Source of the DNA: a virus
DNA length: 64,000 nt
Direction: 5' to 3' (one strand)
Virus record (IMG/VR): IMGVR_UViG_3300026544_000002
Span: 38,492-102,491 of that record
Position numbers and translations under genes: made by a program
Shown here: in pieces, positions 2,256 through 63,454 of the stretch
How positions within the stretch are numbered: the first letter of the stretch is position 1
Layout: each line of letters opens with the position of its first letter
The notes under the pieces: model-generated
The model's database searches: none
The model's input: only the letters and a program-made list of their open reading frames with translations
Told to the model about the DNA's origin: nothing

Positions 2256-3191
2256 ATGCAATTTTCAGAAATAGAAAATAATATCATTTTAGAATATCCA
2301 GTTGGGTCACATTTATATGGTACAAATACCAAAGATTCTGATCAAGATTTTTCTGGTATTTTCATTGCTCCTATCGATTATTATTTTGGAATGAAAGATG
2401 TTAAGGAAATAGATTTTTCAATAGCGTCAAAACATGAAAATGGAAAGAATGATAAAAATGCAATCGATAGAAAATTTTATGAATTAAAAAGATTCATAAA
2501 ATTAGCTGCTGATAATAACCCCGCAATTATAGAACAATTATTTGTACCATTAGAAATATTAATCAATTCTACTTTTAGAGGATTAGCAATTTTAAATCAC
2601 AAAGAAATATTTCTACACAAAGGATTGTATCAGCGATTTCTTGGATATGCATATTCCCAAAAAAAGAAAATGATTGTTAAATTAGATAATCATGATAAAT
2701 ATGAACATGTGAAAAAAGTATTGGAGGAAGCAAATCCGACCGATACACTGCATCATGTTAAAAATATTCTCGGAAAATATTTTGATAAAGAACATATGGC
2801 AGTTGGTGATATCAAAATACCTTTAGGTGTATTGAATAAAAAAGCATTATCGATTATTAATAAAAGATTTTCTAATATGTCACATAGGAAAGAATTGATT
2901 CGTAAACATGGTTTCGATACGAAATTCGGTTCTCACCTAATTCGTTTGACGTTAGAAGGAATCGAATTGTTGGAAACAGGAAATTTGGTTTTTCCATTAA
3001 AAGAAAATAAATTAATTATAGATATAAAAAATGGGAAATATGATCTGAAAGTATTATTAGAATTATTCGATGAATTAGAAAATAGAATCAAAAAAGCAAA
3101 AGATAATTCAGAATTACCAAAGAAACCAGATTTTGATAGAATCAATAATTTATCTATTGATTTAATATCATCATTTTTTGATAATTGTTAA
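2256..3191 (+). CDS. RlaP-like predicted nucleotidyltransferase
   Basis: The 311-aa protein carries the polymerase-beta-type nucleotidyltransferase signature near its N-terminus: G17-S18, then LYG, then SDQD with the likely metal-binding aspartates D29 and D31. The wider context, GSHLYGTNTKDSDQDFSG, matches the predicted nucleotidyltransferase family (PF10127) that includes RNA-ligase-associated RlaP. Members are thought to act in RNA repair or in adding nucleotides to RNA ends. The length fits the family. No RNA ligase is visible in this window. A much smaller paralogous signature occurs at 61924-62343. Confidence 0.75.
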   Translation: MQFSEIENNIILEYPVGSHLYGTNTKDSDQDFSGIFIAPIDYYFGMKDVKEIDFSIASKHENGKNDKNAIDRKFYELKRFIKLAADNNPAIIEQLFVPLEILINSTFRGLAILNHKEIFLHKGLYQRFLGYAYSQKKKMIVKLDNHDKYEHVKKVLEEANPTDTLHHVKNILGKYFDKEHMAVGDIKIPLGVLNKKALSIINKRFSNMSHRKELIRKHGFDTKFGSHLIRLTLEGIELLETGNLVFPLKENKLIIDIKNGKYDLKVLLELFDELENRIKKAKDNSELPKKPDFDRINNLSIDLISSFFDNC

Positions 3192-3205
3192 AGGAGATTA
3201 TTCTG

Positions 3206-3454
3206 ATGTTAGAAAAAAAAGATACATATAATTTAGGTTGTCGTGCAGAAGATATAATAACAGAATTTCAAGGTATTATTACAGGTTTTTGTAGATACAT
3301 TACAGGATGTGATCAATATTTAATCACTCCTAAAGTAGATAAAGAAGGAAAACCCGTATCTGCAAAATGGTTCGATGAAAATAGAATTGAAATATTAGAT
3401 TATGAACCTATTGTTATCAACACTGGTATGAGTGAAGAAGCTCCTATTAAATAA
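3206..3454 (+). CDS. Hypothetical protein, 82 aa
   Basis: The start at 3206 is chosen because AAAGGAG precedes it. The in-frame ATG at 3185 has no ribosome site and overlaps the upstream gene. The middle resembles common phage and plasmid proteins of the pattern GCRAEDIITEFQGIITG, which often have a YWLNP-like element after the glycine. Here there are cysteines in that region (GFCRYITGCDQY). The exact function is unknown. It is followed by a strong terminator. Confidence 0.65.
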   Translation: MLEKKDTYNLGCRAEDIITEFQGIITGFCRYITGCDQYLITPKVDKEGKPVSAKWFDENRIEILDYEPIVINTGMSEEAPIK

Positions 3455-3466
3455 GCATATTCGATA

Positions 3467-3506
3467 AAATCCCCTCTTGATCAAAAATTCAAGAGGGGAT
3501 TTTTTA
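3467..3506 (+). terminator. Rho-independent terminator
   Basis: A 14-bp perfect stem (arms 3467-3480 and 3490-3503, core CCCCTCTTGA) closes an 8-9 base loop and is followed by a run of T. It is the most GC-rich element nearby and ends the 158-3454 operon. Confidence 0.9.
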
Positions 3507-3521
3507 CGTTATGGAGTTTGA

Positions 3522-3842
3522 ATGAAAAAAATAATTCTCCAAGAAGAAAGAAATTTAGATGATGTGTTAAAAAGTGCTATCAGAACATTTCCAAATGGTT
3601 GTAATTTTCGATTAACAAAAGAAGCAAATGATAAATATTATCTTGAATATGGTTGTTATGGTGTTCTTGTTAATTTATTAACAGGAGATGAACGATTATT
3701 ATACAAATGGTTTATTTCAAATAACAAAGAACAAATCAGAAAATGTTTATCAGATGTTGTTTCTTATGAAACTATATTGTTTTTATTAAAAAAAGAAACG
3801 TGTTCAGTCTGTGGTGGTATAAGATTTTTTAAAAAAAATTAA
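3522..3842 (+). CDS. Hypothetical protein with C-terminal CxxC, 106 aa
   Basis: The ATG follows a GGAG ribosome site downstream of a terminator, so a promoter should lie in or just before 3467-3521. The protein is soluble. It has a single CSVCGG motif near residues 95-100, which could be half of a zinc site or a redox-type CxxC. No family is recognised. Confidence 0.6.
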   Translation: MKKIILQEERNLDDVLKSAIRTFPNGCNFRLTKEANDKYYLEYGCYGVLVNLLTGDERLLYKWFISNNKEQIRKCLSDVVSYETILFLLKKETCSVCGGIRFFKKN

Positions 3843-3852
3843 AGGAGATAAT

Positions 3853-4311
3853 ATGAAAAAATATAAATTACCTGTTTCATGGGAAGCATATGGTATATTA
3901 CAAATAGAAGCAAAAGATGATATTGATTTTTTAACTAAAGTGAGAAATTATAAAATCAATAGCGATGAATTACCATTACCACAAGAATCTGATTATATAG
4001 ATGGTTCTTTTAAAATAGAAGAAGAAGATGATATAATTTTAGAAATGAATAAAATTGAAATAACTGATATAGATGCAGCAAAAATTTATATCAAATCATA
4101 TTTAGATTCACATACAGAATATCCAGAAGACAAATGGGTGCAAATATCTAATGATAATGATTTAAATATGTGGATAACAGATGATACAAAAGCAAGAAAA
4201 GCAGCATTGTATCCAGTTAAAAATGGAAAAACAGATACATCTGTTTGGGTAAAAATTAACGTACGTGAATTAGAAAAGGAATGTAAAAATGTTGCTAAAA
4301 AAGATAGCTGA
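3853..4311 (+). CDS. Hypothetical protein, 152 aa (two-part, acidic)
   Basis: Begins after AAAGGAG. The first half (LPVSWEAYGILQIEAKD, then YIDGSFKIE) resembles small beta-sandwich/barrel phage proteins that pair a conserved SWE-hydrophobic strand with a DGSFKI strand. The second half has a tryptophan-containing segment WVKINV. I do not recognise a catalytic motif. The end overlaps the next gene by 23 bases. Confidence 0.6.
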   Translation: MKKYKLPVSWEAYGILQIEAKDDIDFLTKVRNYKINSDELPLPQESDYIDGSFKIEEEDDIILEMNKIEITDIDAAKIYIKSYLDSHTEYPEDKWVQISNDNDLNMWITDDTKARKAALYPVKNGKTDTSVWVKINVRELEKECKNVAKKDS

Positions 4312-5164
4312 TATAAAAGGACCTTTATTAACAGAAGAAAAATATGGACATGAATTTACTATTCGTGAAATTCTTGAATATTATTACAGTAGTAATGATA
4401 TGACGAATTACAAAGAATTAGCTGAAAAATATATTCAATGTCATGGATCATCAAATAAAACCGTTCAAGATTTAAGAGAAAAAAATAATGATATTATGTT
4501 TGGAGATTTGGATAAACACCCTTCATATGGAATGGTTTCTATTAGTAGAACTTCTTGTCATCCAAGTGTTCCTGCATATGGCAGTAAAATAAAACATAAC
4601 ACATTAATATCATTAAAAGTTATGAGATCTGAAAAAAATCGTGATTTATATTCAGAACATTTTTTCTCAAAAAAAACTATTGTAGAATTATATTTTACAC
4701 CATCACAATTTGCACAAATGGTATCTAGTATAAATACATCAGGCGTACCATGTACATTACGATTCATTGAAGGTGAAGGTTGGTTAGAAGATACTCCTAC
4801 GAATGATGTTAAAAGAGAAATGATAGATGATATTGATAGACAAATGGTTAAATTAAAATCAGTAATTGCTAAATTATCGAATGAAGCATCTGATTTACTT
4901 GAAAAAAAAGGAAATTTGAAAAAAGATGATAAAAATAATATATCATCTTTGTTAACTAGAATATATAATGAAATTAATTCAAATTTCGATTTTCTTAATA
5001 GATGTCAAAAAGAAAAATTAGAAGATACAGTAGCAGAAGCACAAGCACAAGTAGAGGCTACAATTAATAAAACTATTTCTGATTATGGGATGAATGGTAT
5101 CAAAGAAAAAATGATAAGTTCATCGAAAATACATGATACGTTGGAGATATCTAATGAAGAATAA
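4289..5164 (+). CDS. Conserved-type phage hypothetical protein, coiled-coil C-terminus, 291 aa
   Basis: The central part (YGMVSISRTSCHPSVP, then YFTPSQFAQMVSSINT, then GVPCTLRFIEGEG) has the pattern of a protein seen in many large phages and annotated only as hypothetical. From about residue 175 to the end the sequence is charged and helical, probably a coiled coil. It is soluble. The ATG lies inside the upstream gene, which suggests coupled translation. The function is unknown. Confidence 0.65.
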   Translation: MLLKKIADIKGPLLTEEKYGHEFTIREILEYYYSSNDMTNYKELAEKYIQCHGSSNKTVQDLREKNNDIMFGDLDKHPSYGMVSISRTSCHPSVPAYGSKIKHNTLISLKVMRSEKNRDLYSEHFFSKKTIVELYFTPSQFAQMVSSINTSGVPCTLRFIEGEGWLEDTPTNDVKREMIDDIDRQMVKLKSVIAKLSNEASDLLEKKGNLKKDDKNNISSLLTRIYNEINSNFDFLNRCQKEKLEDTVAEAQAQVEATINKTISDYGMNGIKEKMISSSKIHDTLEISNEE

Positions 5165-5402
5165 AATTTTAATAGAAGTATCTAGTGGAACAATTACAAA
5201 TGTTAGAGCAACAAATAATGATATTGATGTACATATTATTGATCATGATATTGAAGATGATGATTATCCGACTGAAATAATGGAAGAATTTTATAGTAAA
5301 CCGATTGATTATTATGGTGATCCATTAACAGATGAAGAATTTACAAACATGTTAAATAATCTTATAGAAGATGCAAAAAAGCATATAGAGGAGGATTTAT
5401 AA
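5154..5402 (+). CDS. Small acidic hypothetical protein, 82 aa
   Basis: The start at 5154 is preferred to 5133 because TTGGAGAT precedes it. It overlaps the stop of the upstream gene (ATGAAGAATAA). The protein is strongly acidic (many D and E), which is common in DNA-mimic or regulatory phage proteins, but nothing specific supports such a role. Confidence 0.55.
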   Translation: MKNKILIEVSSGTITNVRATNNDIDVHIIDHDIEDDDYPTEIMEEFYSKPIDYYGDPLTDEEFTNMLNNLIEDAKKHIEEDL

Positions 5403-6308
5403 ATGTCATTTCTTACAGAATCCCTTGAGATGGGATTAGAAACAATTGATCATGGTTTATATGAATATCGTGATCGATATTCATCAGTTTGGTACGAGAT
5501 ATTGAGAGGTGTTACCAGACCTGATGAATTACCTTCATTGGCAATTTTCACAGGAGGACCGACTACACCAATTGATGATAGACAATATGTTGGAGCAGTT
5601 TCTACAGAATACAAATTCTTTGGAAATGCAATGGCTGTTGATGCAGTTATGGAATCTGTTAATAATTTATCATCAGGAAATAATAATATTTCTGAAAAAA
5701 CAATTTTTTCTGCCAATATGACTCAATTGTCATCCGAATTGATGATTATCAATCGTTCATCTAATTCAAATAGTAGAGAAATTGTTGTTCCAATGATCAA
5801 TATTGAAAATTCATATAATGGCACAAAAGCCGCTATGTATTCTTTTGGTATTGGTATTGTTGATGAAAATTTTAATTTGATTGGAAGTGTTTCTCTTAAA
5901 AAGAAAATTTCAAGCATGAGACAGATTCATATCATGTGTTCTAATACACAATTAGAATCAAATATTGGTAGTTATATTGATGTATTTAATACGAATATTA
6001 CTGATTTGATAAATGAAAATTTTGAAAAAGTTATTCCAGCAGAAGATGCAATGAAAGCATTGGGTATGGTAGAAAAGTTAGGAAAACGAAGATATGCAGC
6101 AGTTGTCCATAATCTTGCCAATTTGACAAATAATGGAAACGAATTTGATGAAGATAATATTCCTCCGATTAATGCATGGAATATGTTTATGGCTATTGCT
6201 ACTTATTCATGTAAAGAAGAGAATATCAATGCGAAGAAAATGCTTGATAATATTGCAGAAAGAACATTGAACATTCCTACCAGAATGTTGTCTGCATTGA
6301 ACGGATAA
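5403..6308 (+). CDS. Hypothetical protein, 301 aa, possibly DUF932-like
   Basis: Starts two bases after a GAGGATTTATAA end, so GAGG of the upstream gene is its ribosome site. The middle contains PMINIENSYNGTKAAMYSFGIG, reminiscent of the DUF932 pattern in which a conserved NSYDG is followed by hydrophobic strands. That family is common on plasmids and phages, with no firm function. This match is weak. The last gene before a strong terminator. Confidence 0.6.
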   Translation: MSFLTESLEMGLETIDHGLYEYRDRYSSVWYEILRGVTRPDELPSLAIFTGGPTTPIDDRQYVGAVSTEYKFFGNAMAVDAVMESVNNLSSGNNNISEKTIFSANMTQLSSELMIINRSSNSNSREIVVPMINIENSYNGTKAAMYSFGIGIVDENFNLIGSVSLKKKISSMRQIHIMCSNTQLESNIGSYIDVFNTNITDLINENFEKVIPAEDAMKALGMVEKLGKRRYAAVVHNLANLTNNGNEFDEDNIPPINAWNMFMAIATYSCKEENINAKKMLDNIAERTLNIPTRMLSALNG

Positions 6309-6313
6309 GAAGT

Positions 6314-6348
6314 ACAAAAAAAGTCACTGAAATGGTGACTTTTTTTGT
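6314..6348 (+). terminator. Rho-independent terminator
   Basis: The stem CAAAAAAAGTCAC / GTGACTTTTTTTG surrounds a 7-base loop and continues into T residues. It sits 6 bases after the stop codon of the 301-aa gene. Confidence 0.85.
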
Positions 6349-6404
6349 CTATTTATGCTCTAAAACGCTATATCATATATTCTTTTATACGACTATCACA
6401 CTGT

Positions 6405-6430
6405 TTTTATATATATTAATTAGTGATACC
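6405..6430 (+). promoter_or_regulatory. Putative early-type promoter
   Basis: The segment TTTTATATATATTAATTAGTG matches elements at 36103-36125 and 52961-52990 with the shared pattern TTATATATATT, one base, AAT, two bases, TG. All three lie upstream of rightward genes that start with strong ribosome sites. The 6349-6468 gap otherwise holds nothing recognised. Inference from motif recurrence only. Confidence 0.4.
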
Positions 6431-6468
6431 AAACGAATGATATTTTTAACTATATAAGGAGAAATAAA

Positions 6469-41572: not shown

Positions 41573-42613
41573 TTAATCACTCTTCTTAAAAACTTCCATT
41601 GCTTTGTTATAATTTTCCTGTAAACCCATTCCTTGTTGTGCTTTTGGAGGAAACAACATACCTTTGATAGTATCAAATATTTCTATATCGGATTTTGCTC
41701 CTTTATCTTTTGCATGTTCTATCATTTTAGATTGAGTCTTTTCTGTTTTCATTCCAACAGATTCCATCATCAATCTAATATTTTGGATATTAACATTTGA
41801 TTCATTGATAGATTCAACATCGAATGTTTCAGAAATAATTTCTTTTGACTGTGGTGATTCAATAATAGCTTCTGATACAGTCTTAGTATTTTTCTTGATT
41901 GTTTTTAGTTTCTTAATATATCCCTCTTGAACAATATTACGAATTTTCATACGAAATTCTTTTTGTTCAGGAGTATCGTTTTTAGATGTTTCTGAAAAAG
42001 ATACATTGTTTTCAACAGCATATTTCTCTTGTTCAGATGCTTCTTTTAAAAATTTCTTTTTATCAAAAGTCATTTTCTTTTTATTATTTTTTCTTTTTAC
42101 CGTTGTTTCTTTTTTATCAAATGTTTCTTTTTCAAGTGATTCTGATATAATTTCATTTGTACTTTTTTCATTATAAACAGATTCACTACCATTGCGTAAT
42201 TTTCTTAAAAATTCAATATCTTCCTTCAAAACATTGTCATAAATAGAATTATTTTCATCAGAAGATTGTTTGATTTTTTTAGATTCTGGCAAATCATCAA
42301 TATATGGATCATCACTTTCTATAAACAATCCTCTTTTTATTGTCATATCACCTTTCCATGCAGGAAGATGGAACATATCACCATTTATTTCTAATCTAGC
42401 AGTAATTTTATCTGTTTCTTCAATATGTTTTCTTATAATAGATTGTAAAGGAGGGACTTCTACTTCAATTCTATCTTTATAAATTTTAGTAGGAAAAGCA
42501 TAAATAACATCTTCGTACATAAATTCTAATTTACCGGATAATGCAGTATAGTCTATTCCTTCAATTGTAACATTAAATTGAAAAAATTTTGGTTTTGTAA
42601 CATCAATATCCAT
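41573..42613 (-). CDS. Putative virion/assembly protein with N-terminal beta domain, 346 aa
   Basis: Residues 1-100 form a beta-rich domain (FQFNVTIEGIDYTALSGKLEFMY, then AFPTKIYKDRIEVEVPPLQSI). The remainder is charged, helical and probably partly disordered, with short repeats of K/E. The C-terminus has MLFPPKAQQGMGLQENY. This two-part plan is reminiscent of head or baseplate assembly proteins of large T4-like phages, but I cannot name one. SD AAGGGA. Confidence 0.55.
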   Translation of the reverse strand: MDIDVTKPKFFQFNVTIEGIDYTALSGKLEFMYEDVIYAFPTKIYKDRIEVEVPPLQSIIRKHIEETDKITARLEINGDMFHLPAWKGDMTIKRGLFIESDDPYIDDLPESKKIKQSSDENNSIYDNVLKEDIEFLRKLRNGSESVYNEKSTNEIISESLEKETFDKKETTVKRKNNKKKMTFDKKKFLKEASEQEKYAVENNVSFSETSKNDTPEQKEFRMKIRNIVQEGYIKKLKTIKKNTKTVSEAIIESPQSKEIISETFDVESINESNVNIQNIRLMMESVGMKTEKTQSKMIEHAKDKGAKSDIEIFDTIKGMLFPPKAQQGMGLQENYNKAMEVFKKSD

Positions 42614-53238: not shown

Positions 53239-53540
53239 AACATATCATTTGTCACTAGTTAAACCAAAGTCGAAAAATGTATCACAAGAAATTAGCAAAC
53301 CGAGTGGTTAAAATAAATCATCGTCCATTAGAAAACCAGAAAATTTTAATGTATCACTTAGAGAACGTAAACCGTCAATTTCAAAATGAATCAACATCAC
53401 CTTACATAAACCATACAATAAAAATGTATCACATGTATATAGAAAACCAGACGGAGAAAATGTATCACAAGAAAATAGTAAACCAGTGGGTAATTAATGT
53501 ATCACCTTTGAGAAGAAAACCACAGGGAATTAATGCATTT
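53239..53540 (+). repeat. TIGR-type array 1 (tandem interspaced guide RNA), 8 units plus terminal degenerate unit
   Basis: Units start at 53239, 53276, 53312, 53348, 53385, 53423, 53459, 53496 and 53532 (spacing 36-38). Each unit is motif 1 (consensus AATGTATCA), a ~9-nt variable segment, motif 2 (consensus AGAAAACCA) and a second ~9-nt variable segment. Variable pairs, first / second: tttgtcact / aagtcgaaa; caagaaatt / agtggttaa; tcgtccatt / gaaaatttt; cttagagaa / tcaatttcaa; acatcacct / tacaataaa; catgtatat / gacggagaa; caagaaaat / gtgggtaatt; cctttgaga / cagggaatt. The last unit starts AATGCATTT and decays. This is the most degenerate array, and it ends 100 bases before the tas start. Confidence 0.85.
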
Positions 53541-53607
53541 ATTTATTCAATAAATTCCATATGAGATAAATCATAATAAGTATGATATTCATGTGGAATT
53601 ATTTAAC

Positions 53608-53621
53608 GAGGATCGATCCTC
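53608..53621 (+). promoter_or_regulatory. 14-bp perfect palindrome before tas
   Basis: GAGGATCGATCCTC lies 4 bases before the AAATAAAGGAG ribosome site of the Tas gene. It is far more GC-rich than its surroundings. It may be an operator, or an mRNA hairpin that controls translation of tas. Confidence 0.35.
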
Positions 53622-53640
53622 AAATAAAGGAGTAAAGAAA

Positions 53641-54696
53641 ATGGCTAAAAAAGAAACAGAAAGAAAAAAAGTGGAAGACATGAGAATTTGTTCACCGTCA
53701 GAAGATGTTGTTAATGCTCTCGAAAGTGGGCGAGAATTCCGTGATGCAACATTGGGGTGGAATGATAAGGACAAACCTGTCAAATATGTTTCCGAAGCAC
53801 ATCGAGAATATATCGCACAAAAATCACAATTGAAAATGATTGTCTCAAGTTATTATGACATGCAGAAACAGCGTGTTGCAGTCGGCAATCGAATTGTTGG
53901 TAATTTTCTTCTTCGTATCGGCGGGAAGGAAACTATGGAAAAAGATGTGAAAGATGATAAATTGATTGCTGAAATGGTGAAAGAATATGCAACATTGGCA
54001 GATGCTTTCACCAGTCCGAAAAAAATCAGAAGTTTCTTTGAAACACAACGAGAAGGATTCATCACAACTGAACATGAATTAACAATGATGAATACTTATC
54101 TCAGTTATCGTGGTGCGGAAAAGAAATTGATGAAAGATATTCAAAGATATGTGGAAGATTTCCCTCTTTATCAAAATTTTCTGAAACATGTCAATGGATG
54201 TGGACCGGCTATGTCAGCGTGTATCATTTCATGTTTTGATCCATACAAGGCAAAACATGTTTCTTCATTTTGGAAATATGCTGGATTGGATGTTATTGAT
54301 GGTGAGGGGAGAAGTAAGAAAAAACGTCATCAAATTGTTGAGAAATACGTAGACAAGAATCAAGATATTGATTGGAAGTTTTCAATCTCTTACAATGCTT
54401 TTTTGAAAGCAAAATTGTGTGGTGTTCTCGCAACTTCTTTCCTTCGTGCTGGAAAAGATTCTAGTAAGTATAATACCATTTATTATAATTACAAAGAACG
54501 AATTTCAAACAATGAAAGACATAAAGAAAAATCAGATGGTCATCGTCATGCAATGGCTATGCGGTATATGATCAAAATGTTTGTTGCTGATGTGTGGGTA
54601 CAGATGAGAAGCATCGAAGAGCTTCCGGTAACAAAACCATATCATGAAGCCAAACTGGGGTTGGTTCATGGCGGGACAGAAAGTAAAGCAGCATAA
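53641..54696 (+). CDS. tas: Tas protein (TIGR-associated, Nop/IS110-like), nuclease-less TasA type
   Basis: The 351-aa start is set at 53641 by AAAGGAG. A longer frame from 53593 crosses the palindrome. Residues 50-175 are helical, probably coiled coil. Residues 176-320 resemble the Nop-like/IS110 C-terminal RNA-binding region: VNGCGPAMSACIIS (184-197), SFWKYAGLDV (209-218), a basic SKKKRH loop (225-230) and HAMAMRYMIKMFVADVW (303-319). No HNH motif and no convincing RuvC acidic triad is visible, so it fits the nuclease-less TasA group. By family knowledge, Tas binds ~36-nt tigRNAs and targets DNA with two short spacers. Four 36-bp-period arrays surround it, the nearest just upstream. An IS110 transposase relic is less likely: no DEDD N-domain and no insertion-sequence ends are seen. 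Confidence 0.8.
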   Translation: MAKKETERKKVEDMRICSPSEDVVNALESGREFRDATLGWNDKDKPVKYVSEAHREYIAQKSQLKMIVSSYYDMQKQRVAVGNRIVGNFLLRIGGKETMEKDVKDDKLIAEMVKEYATLADAFTSPKKIRSFFETQREGFITTEHELTMMNTYLSYRGAEKKLMKDIQRYVEDFPLYQNFLKHVNGCGPAMSACIISCFDPYKAKHVSSFWKYAGLDVIDGEGRSKKKRHQIVEKYVDKNQDIDWKFSISYNAFLKAKLCGVLATSFLRAGKDSSKYNTIYYNYKERISNNERHKEKSDGHRHAMAMRYMIKMFVADVWVQMRSIEELPVTKPYHEAKLGLVHGGTESKAA

Positions 54697-54705
54697 ATCT
54701 TTTTA

Positions 54706-54751
54706 AATCTGAATCGTATCAAATGAGAAATTGTTTGATACGATTCAGATT
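54706..54751 (+). terminator. Perfect 18-bp hairpin after tas
   Basis: Arms 54706-54723 and 54734-54751 are exact complements with a 10-base loop. The stem ends two bases before TIGR array 2. CTCTTT follows rather than a U-run. It may separate the tas message from the array transcript by termination or by RNase III-type processing. Confidence 0.6.
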
Positions 54752-54752
54752 C

Positions 54753-55014
54753 TCTTTATCATAGTATAAAAGGTAATCCAATAATTTATAATGTGTCGGT
54801 AGATCGAAGAGAACCGGATATGAAAAACGAATCGAAATTTCAGAGAAAACCTGCGGGAAGCAATGTATCTCTATTCCAAAGAAAACCACTGGAAGGTAAT
54901 GTATCGTTAGATTGAAGAAAACCAGAAAGTTTTAATGTATCATTCAGAACGAGAAAACCAGTTACTTGCAATGTATCATTCTGCTTTAGAAAACCAGTTC
55001 AAGAAAATGTTTCA
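54753..55014 (+). repeat. TIGR-type array 2, 7 units plus terminal half unit
   Basis: Units start at 54753, 54790, 54826, 54862, 54898, 54934, 54970 and 55006. After the first, spacing is exactly 36. Variable pairs: tagtataaa / ataatttat; gtagatcga / gatatgaaa; aaatttcag / gcgggaagc; ctattccaa / ctggaaggt; ttagattga / gaaagtttt; ttcagaacg / gttacttgc; ttctgcttt / gttcaagaa. The last motif AATGTTTCA runs into the ribosome site of the gene at 55036. The first two or three units are the most degenerate, the last four the most regular, so the leader-distal end is best preserved. Confidence 0.9.
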
Positions 55015-55035
55015 AAACAATTTAAAGGAGAAATT

Positions 55036-55587
55036 ATGTATAACGTGACACCTGGAATATACACGAAAAAAGAAGCAGCAGGATTAGCTGCAAAAGCTTT
55101 TGCATTGGAAGAAAGGAATAGTTGGATTGTTTGCCACAAAACAGTCAAAATAGATTCAAATATTTCTATGATGTATTATAAACCTGTTCCTCAAGATAAT
55201 TTGAAGGAAGCAAAAGAAGATGGATGGGTGGTCGTATCATTCAAAATAAAAAAAGAAGATAAATGTATTGATTATCAATCATCTGCTATCATCAACCCTC
55301 GTCGATGTGATCTTGCCAAAAAGGAAGATCCAATCAAATTATCAACAGATTTTTATTCTATTATAATTGAATTTCGAGATATTAACAAATCTGCTAATTT
55401 TGATATGGTAGAAAATTACTGCATGGATAGTGATTTTGACTATTCAACAAATGAATCTGTGGGTAAAATCATTGTCAAAACAATCACGAAACATAATGCA
55501 AATGATATCATTTCCGATATCTTAGACATGACTGCTCCTGTTCATGTAAGTGAATGGGAAGGAAGAAAAGTGACAATGAGAATCTGA
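55036..55587 (+). CDS. Hypothetical protein downstream of TIGR array 2, 183 aa
   Basis: The ATG follows AAAGGAG directly behind the last array motif. The N-terminus (TKKEAAGLAAKAFALEERNSWIVC) is helical. The rest is mixed alpha/beta, with ENYCMDSDFDYSTNES, an acidic loop. No family recognised and no nuclease motif seen. The position between two arrays and after tas makes it a candidate accessory gene, but co-location is the only support. Confidence 0.6.
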   Translation: MYNVTPGIYTKKEAAGLAAKAFALEERNSWIVCHKTVKIDSNISMMYYKPVPQDNLKEAKEDGWVVVSFKIKKEDKCIDYQSSAIINPRRCDLAKKEDPIKLSTDFYSIIIEFRDINKSANFDMVENYCMDSDFDYSTNESVGKIIVKTITKHNANDIISDILDMTAPVHVSEWEGRKVTMRI

Positions 55588-55595
55588 TTTATTAG

Positions 55596-55641
55596 ATTCA
55601 TTCTGACACAAATACATGGTAGTATTTGTGTCAGAATGAAT
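55596..55641 (+). terminator. Perfect 20-bp hairpin after the 183-aa gene
   Basis: Arms 55596-55615 and 55622-55641 are exact complements with a 6-base loop. No U-run follows. The 85-base stretch from here to array 3 has a short frame (55636-55716) of doubtful status and nothing else recognised. Confidence 0.6.
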
Positions 55642-55726: not shown

Positions 55727-55988
55727 AATTTATCAAGAGGGTATAGAAATCCTAATGTATGGAATGTATCATTTTCCAAAAGAAATCCAGCACGTCTCAA
55801 TGTATCAAACATTAGAAGAAAACCATAAAATTATAATGTATCAGAACCCTAAAGAAAACCAAATATGTATATTGTATCAAAACTAGCAAGAAAACCAACG
55901 AGCTTGTAATGTATCATTTACTGGTAGAAAACCAACCTTCGAAAATGTATCAAAGAGAAAAAGAAATCCTAAAATGCAAAATGAATCA
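55727..55988 (+). repeat. TIGR-type array 3, 7 units plus terminal half unit
   Basis: Units start at 55727, 55763, 55799, 55835, 55871, 55908, 55944 and 55980, with spacing 36 except one of 37. Variable pairs: agagggtat / aatgtatgg; ttttccaaa / gcacgtctc; aacattaga / taaaattat; gaaccctaa / aatatgtat; aaactagca / acgagcttgt; tttactggt / accttcgaa; aagagaaaa / aaaatgcaa. The final motif AATGAATCA is followed by ACTTTGAAAAGGAG, the ribosome site of the MESH1-like gene. Motif 1 is nearly invariant in this array. Motif 2 varies at one position (AGAAATCC in three units). Confidence 0.9.
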
Positions 55989-56008
55989 ACTTTGAAAAGG
56001 AGAACAAT

Positions 56009-56548
56009 ATGATCGAAACAGCTATATTTTATGCAACCAAAAAGCATGAAAATCAAAAAAGAAAATACATCAATATTCCTTATATTGTTCATCCTTTAAC
56101 TGTCATGGAAATCGTCAGAGGATGTGTACAAAATCACACAGAGGAAATGTTATGTGCAGCAGTTTTACATGATACTGTAGAAGATACAGATGCAACTATC
56201 GAAGAAATACATAAAATTTTCGGAAAAACTGTTGCTGAATATGTACATTATCTTTCTGATATTTCTAAACCAGAAGATGGAAACAGAAGAACAAGAAAAG
56301 AAATAGATAGAATTCATATTTCAAAAGGACCCGCAGAAGTTCATTCAATCAAATTAGCTGATCTTATAGATAATTCAGCATCAATTCTTTTATACGATCC
56401 TAACTTTGCTAAAATTTATATTAAAGAAAAAGAAGCATTATTAGAAGTTCTGACAAAAGGAGATTCTTCTTTAATATATGCAGCAAATGAAATTGTAAAA
56501 AATTTCTATCTTCAAAGAATCAAAAAAGGATGGAATGGAATAAAATGA
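56009..56548 (+). CDS. HD-domain (p)ppGpp hydrolase-like protein (MESH1/SpoT-type)
   Basis: The 179-aa protein has the HD signature of RelA/SpoT/MESH1 hydrolases: ATKKHENQKRKYINIPYIVHP (9-29) with H28, LHDTVEDTD (53-61) with H54-D55, FGKTVAEYVHYLSD, and KLADLIDN (115-122). Length is that of stand-alone small alarmone hydrolases. The known role is removal of the 3' pyrophosphate of (p)ppGpp, which would dampen the host stringent response. It sits directly behind array 3. Its stop overlaps the next start (ATGA). Confidence 0.8.
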   Translation: MIETAIFYATKKHENQKRKYINIPYIVHPLTVMEIVRGCVQNHTEEMLCAAVLHDTVEDTDATIEEIHKIFGKTVAEYVHYLSDISKPEDGNRRTRKEIDRIHISKGPAEVHSIKLADLIDNSASILLYDPNFAKIYIKEKEALLEVLTKGDSSLIYAANEIVKNFYLQRIKKGWNGIK

Positions 56549-62345: not shown

Positions 62346-62528
62346 AATATACCAGCTCACCTTAGAAAACCACGACGACTTAGAAGTGAATTATGAAAAT
62401 AAAGTAAACCACATCTCCAAAATGAATCAAGCAGGATTAGAAACCCTTAAAAGTTCAATGTATCATTCATACCTAGGAAAACAATACGTACAAATGTGTC
62501 ATTTATCCAAAAAAACCAAATTATAAAC
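62346..62528 (+). repeat. TIGR-type array 4, 5 units
   Basis: Units start at 62346 (AATATACCA), 62385 (AGTGAATTA), 62421, 62457 and 62493. Variable pairs: gctcacctt / cgacgacttaga; tgaaaataa / catctccaa; agcaggatt / taaaagttc; ttcatacct / atacgtaca; tttatccaa / attataaac. Motif 2 forms are AGAAAACCA, AGTAAACCA, AGAAACCCT, AGGAAAACA and AAAAACCAA. More degenerate than arrays 2 and 3 and shortest. It begins 2 bases after the nucleotidyltransferase stop and ends 17 bases before the radical SAM ATG. Confidence 0.8.
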
Positions 62529-62545
62529 AAAATAAAGGAGGATAT

Positions 62546-63454
62546 ATGCTAACAAAAATAAATTCAATTGGAAATATTATTCAATGTTACCAAAATGGGA
62601 ATTATCACATAATTATATTGAATGATGGAACAAAAATAAGATATACCGAAGAAGAAAAATGGAGACCTCTTTTTCCCGAATCAATCGACGTTAAAATTAC
62701 AAATAAATGTGATTTGAAATGTCCTTATTGCCATGAAAGTTCTACTATTGATGGCGAACATTGTGACATGAACAAAACAATAGAAGTTTTAAATGATTTA
62801 CCAGCAGGTGTCGAATTAGCAATAGGCGGTGGAAATCCTTTAGAACATCCAGAATTATTTCCATTTTTAGAATGGTGTAAATCAAGACATTTGATTTGTA
62901 ATATAACTATAAATAGTGACCATTTTAAAAAAATGAATCATATTAGTAAAATATTATCTAATAAATTAATTTATGGTTTAGGAATTTCATATTCAAACGA
63001 AACATTTAGAGTAGCACCACATTATAAAAATACTGTTTGTCATGTTATTCTTGGAATACATTCTTTAAATGAAATTGAAAATGCATTATCTTTATATGGA
63101 AAAATTCTTATTCTTGGATATAAAGATTTTGGAAGAGGGCAGATATATAAACATTCTCTTTCTTCTAAAATAGATAATATAAAAAATAATTTATGGAAAT
63201 TGTTTCAAATGGATGGGATTATTTCTTTTGATAATCTCGCTATTAAACAATTGCAATTAGAGAATTATTTTTATGAATATGCATGGAAAGAATTTTATAT
63301 GGGAAACGATGGTGATTTTACTATGTATTACGATGCAGTAGAGCAAAAATTTGGAAAAAATTCTTGTACAAAAAATACGGAAAGAGAATCATCTGATTAT
63401 GGTATTATTAAATTTTTTAACAGTTTAAAATTATTTGAAGAGGAGAAAAAATAA
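62546..63454 (+). CDS. Radical SAM protein
   Basis: The 302-aa protein has VKITNKCDLKCPYCHES with the 4Fe-4S cysteines C55, C59 and C62 (CxxxCxxC) and AIGGGNPLEHPELFPFL (92-108), the radical SAM GGE-like SAM site with GGN in place of GGE. The rest of the barrel is plausible, but I see no auxiliary cluster motif. Substrate unknown. Phage radical SAM enzymes often modify tRNA, nucleotides or peptides. SD AAAGGAGG directly follows array 4. The GGN variant may alter activity. Confidence 0.75.
   Translation: MLTKINSIGNIIQCYQNGNYHIIILNDGTKIRYTEEEKWRPLFPESIDVKITNKCDLKCPYCHESSTIDGEHCDMNKTIEVLNDLPAGVELAIGGGNPLEHPELFPFLEWCKSRHLICNITINSDHFKKMNHISKILSNKLIYGLGISYSNETFRVAPHYKNTVCHVILGIHSLNEIENALSLYGKILILGYKDFGRGQIYKHSLSSKIDNIKNNLWKLFQMDGIISFDNLAIKQLQLENYFYEYAWKEFYMGNDGDFTMYYDAVEQKFGKNSCTKNTERESSDYGIIKFFNSLKLFEEEKK

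Follow-up and report, generated by a model that had tools for sequence, protein, structure and literature searches.

Organization of the locus

The window analysed here, a stretch of 64,000 nucleotides, corresponds to bases 38492–102491 of a 102,491-base IMG/VR virus record (IMGVR_UViG_3300026544_000002) and encodes, among other proteins, a tail sheath and a baseplate wedge protein. From about 53 kb up to the contig end, the genes lie exclusively on the + strand. The gaps between co-directional genes of this phage have a median of 11 nt, and several of the largest ones are arrays.

Four dual-repeat TIGR arrays with a period of 36 nt are found in one gene block, all on the + strand like the surrounding genes, in agreement with the initial annotation, which had them oriented with transcription. 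A loop repeat (AGAAAACCA) alternates with an edge repeat (AATGTATCA), each 9 nt long, and the spacers are mostly 9 nt long as well. Array 1 (53239–53522) comprises 16 repeat motifs followed by a truncated edge (AATG..), whereas arrays 2 and 3 end with full-length edges: array 2 (54772–55014, 14 motifs) with the 9-nt edge AATGTTTCA (55006–55014) and array 3 (55727–55988, 15 motifs) with AATGAATCA (55980–55988). Array 4 (62346–62518) contains 10 motifs, including one irregular unit, and its last loop is AAAAAACCA (62510–62518). Four chains of 7–15 motifs were detected in the 102-kb record, while shuffled sequences reached four motifs at most; scanning both strands of the record disclosed no further comparable chain. 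Three weaker candidates were set aside: a five-motif chain (4186–4344), judged to be due to chance; a 37-nt periodicity (42006–42205), judged to reflect chance or coding; and an edge-like 9-mer at 55042, 36 nt past the last edge of array 2, which lies within coding sequence and was not counted. A search of the phage's own genome for targets of the 23 complete units, in four geometries, gave no match beyond the level of shuffled pairs.

Each array lies upstream of a protein gene. Array 1, preceded at a distance of 9 nt by a 67-aa ORF, is followed by the tasA gene (53641–54696, + strand), which codes for a solo Nop-type Tas protein of 351 aa with no recognised nuclease domain. Array 2 precedes an orphan gene of 183 aa (55036–55587, + strand), for which a search for relatives found none; array 3 precedes an HD-domain hydrolase gene of the MESH1/(p)ppGpp-hydrolase type (56009–56548, + strand); and array 4 precedes a radical-SAM gene coding for an Fe-S oxidoreductase (62546–63454, + strand). 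Relatives of the HD hydrolase occur in 353 phage records, and the phage enzyme may target host alarmones. Note that a 95-aa frame (53277–53564) is open across array 1 because the 36-nt unit preserves the reading frame; it has no ribosome site and is probably not a gene.

The system is TIGR-TasA

The Tas protein matches phrog_4285 (4e-37), and a profile built from Tas and nine relatives retrieved, among solved structures, TasR (9mty, 1e-19) and TasH (4e-17). TasH and TasR are also the top matches of the predicted Tas fold (E 3e-7; mean pLDDT of the model, 72). The only domain matches of the protein were of the Nop/Transposase_20 type, residues 2–49 of the model being of low confidence. The arrays have the architecture expected of TIGR-Tas, namely two alternating repeats (8–12 nt), spacers of about 9 nt and a 36-nt unit. 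Their edges also show the box C/D-type pairing of this family, as judged from pair counts made across loci: between AATGTATCA in this phage and AGCGAGCCA in most relatives, pair 2–7 changes from A-T to G-C and pair 3–6 from T-A to C-G. Covariation of this kind is described for TIGR edge repeats (PMC12045711). In view of the profile and fold matches to TasR and TasH and of this covariation, the system of the window is TIGR-TasA, the nuclease-free subtype.

Junctions between the arrays and the neighboring genes

The junctions are tight downstream of arrays 2–4, where the start codon lies 21, 20 and 27 nt past the array end, respectively, which leaves no space for a promoter between these arrays and their genes. 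Behind array 2, the ribosome site AAAGGAG (55024–55030, + strand) is located 9 nt past the last edge and is followed by the ATG at 55036; behind array 3, AAGGAG (55997–56002, + strand) precedes the ATG at 56009. The initial annotation had described the final motif of both arrays as running into a ribosome site, at 55006–55030 and 55980–56002, and both intervals match. For array 4, it had placed the end of the array 8 bases before AAAGGAGG; the actual gap to this ribosome site (62534–62541, + strand; ATG of the radical-SAM gene at 62546) is 15 nt (62518 to 62534). At its other end, array 4 begins 2 nt past the stop codon of the preceding gene. Array 1 is separated from tas by a 118-nt structured leader (folding of 53523–53660, z −4.2), with two stable hairpins on the + strand, one at 53553–53600 and the other a perfect 14-bp palindrome, GAGGATCGATCCTC, at 53612–53625, just before the ribosome site.

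No terminator-like hairpin was found between any of the four arrays and its gene. Sigma-70-like promoter matches around the arrays are uninformative because they are no more frequent than in shuffled sequences. The predicted accessibility of the ribosome sites rises somewhat once the last full edge is cut (from 0.20 to 0.50, from 0.56 to 0.70 and from 0.54 to 0.72), but we do not infer a structural switch, since the arrays are predicted to be no more structured than shuffled sequences.

Two strong hairpins on the + strand lie before arrays 2 and 3, directly 3' of the preceding genes: a perfect 18-bp hairpin between tas and array 2 (54706–54751), which is a terminator-like or a processing hairpin, and a perfect 20-bp hairpin separating array 3 from the 183-aa gene (55596–55641). 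Perfect hairpins occur at 11 further intergenic sites of the 102-kb record, with stems of 14–20 bp overall; they mostly lie 3–25 nt past a stop codon, a T-run is often lacking, and several of them are followed by the next gene after 10–20 nt. They are possibly 3'-end or processing hairpins of the phage. The hairpins that precede arrays 2 and 3 could insulate them from the upstream genes, so that separate units with their own promoters are possible, in which the arrays would still be leaders. They are no proof of such units, because similar hairpins mostly trail stop codons, with the next gene often close by.

Arrays of relatives commonly lie between a stop codon and a ribosome site

To place these junctions in a wider context, we assembled 131 Tas-related loci, including the window, from three viral-contig scans, one genome-contig scan and four phage records, and called arrays with a chain parser using locus-specific repeats. 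Arrays were found in 120 of the 131 loci, all of them in the direction of tas and none antisense; the same parser returned no array from shuffled loci. Removal of near-identical loci left 118 arrays in 84 clusters. Where counts are given by Tas cluster (52 clusters at 65% identity, not fully independent of each other), one array was counted per cluster. All survey counts depend on the thresholds, and the start codons in relatives come from a simple gene caller, so that some short downstream ORFs may be wrong.

A co-directional start codon lies at most 60 nt past the array end for 66 of the 118 non-redundant arrays, and 46 of the 118 abut genes on both sides, being also at most 40 nt away from the preceding stop codon (median 5' gap, 12 nt). 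In 26 Tas clusters, an array immediately precedes tas; in 21 of these, it ends at most 60 nt from the tas start codon. The placement of arrays as 5' leaders of protein genes, as proposed in the initial annotation, thus exceeds chance. A terminator-like hairpin is found within 60 nt behind the array in only 7 of the 118 cases, and in none of the 21 clusters does a terminator separate the upstream array from the tas start. Under two definitions, terminators follow 0 of 42 leader arrays versus 4 of 37 other arrays (p=0.044); the loosest definition gave no difference (5/42 versus 8/37). As a side observation, three arrays of one phage (L018; 9918–9985, 11430–11490 and 16997–17048) share a motif similar to CTTTATTCTTTTGGT between array and ribosome site.

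At the 5' boundary, eight Tas clusters show an overlap between the first edge and the stop codon of tas: TAG-CCA (UAG-CCA) forms the edge tail, and the first loop comes exactly 12 nt further on. The tas stop codon is TAG in all eight of these clusters, versus 4 of 21 tas genes that lack a downstream array (p=1e-4). This overlap leaves no space for an intergenic promoter of the array. The window differs from the overlap clusters in that a hairpin lies between tas and array 2, as is also the case in L045, L046 and L047. In L045, a very long array (2694–6457) of about 196 repeat motifs has the same edge as the window (AATGTATCA); it is preceded by another hairpin behind tas and followed by a strong terminator. 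A terminated array is also present in Microcystis phage Mvi-JY20 (L006), a relative of the phage.

These data bear on the idea that each array is an independent unit, with its own promoter and 3' end, whose proximity to genes merely reflects the compactness of phage genomes. The hairpins before arrays 2 and 3 speak for such a scheme, as do the terminators found behind the arrays described in the TIGR-Tas paper (PMC12045711). The rarity of terminators in our survey, the start of array 4 almost at a stop codon and the edge–stop codon overlaps all argue against it, and we consider it quite improbable. Rather, arrays commonly extend from a stop codon to a ribosome site, which suggests that they are transcribed as part of the operon that hosts them. 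Note that a promoter within an array is possible.

The last edge and the ribosome site

The terminal edges of relatives show how arrays merge into the translation start region. Their positions 1–4 are kept at 0.90–0.97, nearly as in internal edges, but conservation drops to 0.44 and 0.54 at positions 8 and 9 (background, 0.24 and 0.30): the last edge usually retains its 5' half only and the ribosome site comes next. A 3' truncated edge is also a feature of the published TIGR-Tas arrays, but here a ribosome site, not a terminator, comes after it. Across relatives' arrays, the median distance between a predicted mid-edge cut and the start codon is 26 nt.

We examined the position of this predicted cut in the 35 leader arrays whose Shine-Dalgarno motif is clear, counting one per Tas cluster and class. 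It lies upstream of the motif in 29 of them and within or behind it in the remaining six, four of which precede tas (L049, AGGAGCGAGCCATG; L033; L016; L019) and two other genes (L039 and L043); some start codons of this overlap set are uncertain, e.g. the GTG of L019.

The ribosome sites themselves might be decayed array units, in which the A/G-rich loop repeat has turned into a Shine-Dalgarno motif. Array 3 displays AGGAGAACA at the loop position, identical to AGAAAACCA at 6 of 9 positions, L025 has AGGAAACCC, and the phase of the Shine-Dalgarno motif relative to the last repeat is non-uniform (p about 0.004, n=51). However, a truncated edge tightly packed against a ribosome site would yield an equal phase preference, the loci are not independent and only 4 of 9 positions match in array 2. 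The resemblance is only suggestive, and an origin of the ribosome sites from loop repeats seems improbable.

The downstream gene is probably not specifically chosen

The initial annotation had raised the possibility that guide production is linked to the expression of each downstream gene. Elsewhere, the genes behind arrays include those for terminase subunits, a DnaB-like helicase, another helicase, methyltransferases, an exonuclease and an HNH endonuclease; the 183-aa gene is an orphan; and none of six sampled relatives of the HD hydrolase and radical-SAM genes (five phage records and one viral contig) has an array nearby. Because the downstream genes vary and the sampled relatives are devoid of arrays, control specific to the downstream gene is unsupported, and we rejected gene-specific coupling; the downstream gene is probably not specifically chosen. 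The other option considered at the outset, that the arrays ride on existing operons, better fits the 183-aa, HD and radical-SAM genes.

If there is a regulatory link, tas itself is its most plausible target. Processing, or the binding of Tas at the last repeat, would then deliberately control the downstream gene, above all tas, by negative feedback. Consistent with this, the predicted cut falls inside or after the Shine-Dalgarno motif in six Tas clusters, including four before tas; processing needs Tas, according to the TIGR-Tas paper (PMC12045711); and, as summarized in a review, the 5' overlap of an archaeal C/D sRNA lowered the expression of the downstream gene (PMC7994747). Yet the ribosome site is left untouched in 29 of 35 leader arrays, arrays that do not precede tas have genes of differing kinds behind them, six relatives of the HD and radical-SAM genes are array-free, and some start codons of the overlap set are uncertain. 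Deliberate control is therefore a tentative possibility, somewhat on the doubtful side. Negative feedback on tas in the four Tas clusters with a predicted cut in the tas start region is possible, by analogy with published processing.

A proposed model for array transcription and processing

Taken together, the layout leads us to favor, as the likely reading, a model in which the arrays are intercistronic elements of a polycistronic phage mRNA that Tas-dependent processing should cut. Each array, placed after one gene and before the ribosome site of the next, would be co-transcribed with the downstream gene as its 5' leader. By analogy with characterized systems, a host RNase would cut the Tas-bound transcript inside each edge repeat, releasing 36-nt tigRNAs; the same cuts would also separate the mRNAs of the neighboring genes. 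The TIGR-Tas paper reports that arrays of TasR, TasH and TasA are processed at edge repeats and that Tas is required (PMC12045711). The proposal that processing cuts the downstream leader follows to the extent that the edges are handled here as in these three systems: with an array lying between a stop codon and a ribosome site, guide maturation must then cut the linking mRNA.

For most loci, arrays 2 and 3 among them, the last predicted cut would fall about 25 nt upstream of the start codon, leaving the ribosome site intact, so that the downstream gene should still be translatable from a very short leader. The arrays would thus mainly ride on operons whose transcription they borrow. A minority of loci have their last edge inside the translation start region of tas; there, tas should be repressed by Tas binding or by the cut itself. 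Since terminal edges are often truncated and since minimal arrays are, in the same paper, reported to be processed when their edges are full (PMC12045711), the last unit may stay on the mRNA in some loci. A more general scheme, which we regard as rather unlikely, would make TIGR arrays general mRNA-splitting leaders that adjust tas levels by feedback wherever the last edge overlaps its start region, and that leave behind new short 5' ends or an uncut tigRNA-like unit that Tas can hold.

The layout predicts Tas-dependent mRNA ends at edge repeats, and it singles out L049, L033 and L016 as loci in which tas autoregulation is directly testable. It bears on the transcription, maturation and control of TIGR arrays.

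Comparison with known systems

The layout of the window is a variant of TIGR-Tas. It shares with the system described by Faure et al. 2025 (PMC12045711) a Nop-type Tas protein, alternating 9-nt edge and loop repeats, two 9-nt spacers, a 36-nt period and arrays both upstream and downstream of tas; the truncated terminal edge of that system is seen across relatives and, in the window, in array 1 but not in arrays 2 and 3. It departs from it at the 3' end of the arrays: a rho-independent terminator is typical, though not essential, behind the arrays of that description (PMC12045711), whereas none of the four arrays of the window is followed by one. Instead, the arrays run into the ribosome sites of tas or of unrelated genes, in one case at a distance of about 8 kb. 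The main text of the TIGR-Tas paper makes no mention of a ribosome binding site, a UTR or a start codon, and we found no description there of a layout extending from stop codon to ribosome site (PMC12045711).

Like CRISPR arrays, TIGR arrays consist of a repeat–spacer precursor that is cut into guide RNAs, but they have two alternating short repeats and split guides. A CRISPR locus usually consists of a leader and an array, with no protein gene as its immediate 3' continuation.

A close parallel is offered by archaeal box C/D sRNAs, which are related guide RNAs, are bound by a Nop-domain protein and overlap ORFs. According to the review that covers Tripp et al. 2017 (PMC7994747), most of their genes overlap ORF ends, 25% include the upstream stop codon, mostly in box C, and 7% overlap the downstream start; only about 20% have a promoter-like motif, and most need no promoter of their own. 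The two differ in that the archaeal sRNAs are single or paired, reside in cellular genomes and guide RNA methylation, whereas TIGR arrays are multi-unit and phage-borne. The layout reported here extends to phage TIGR systems a habit of archaeal box C/D guide genes, that of overlapping ORFs.
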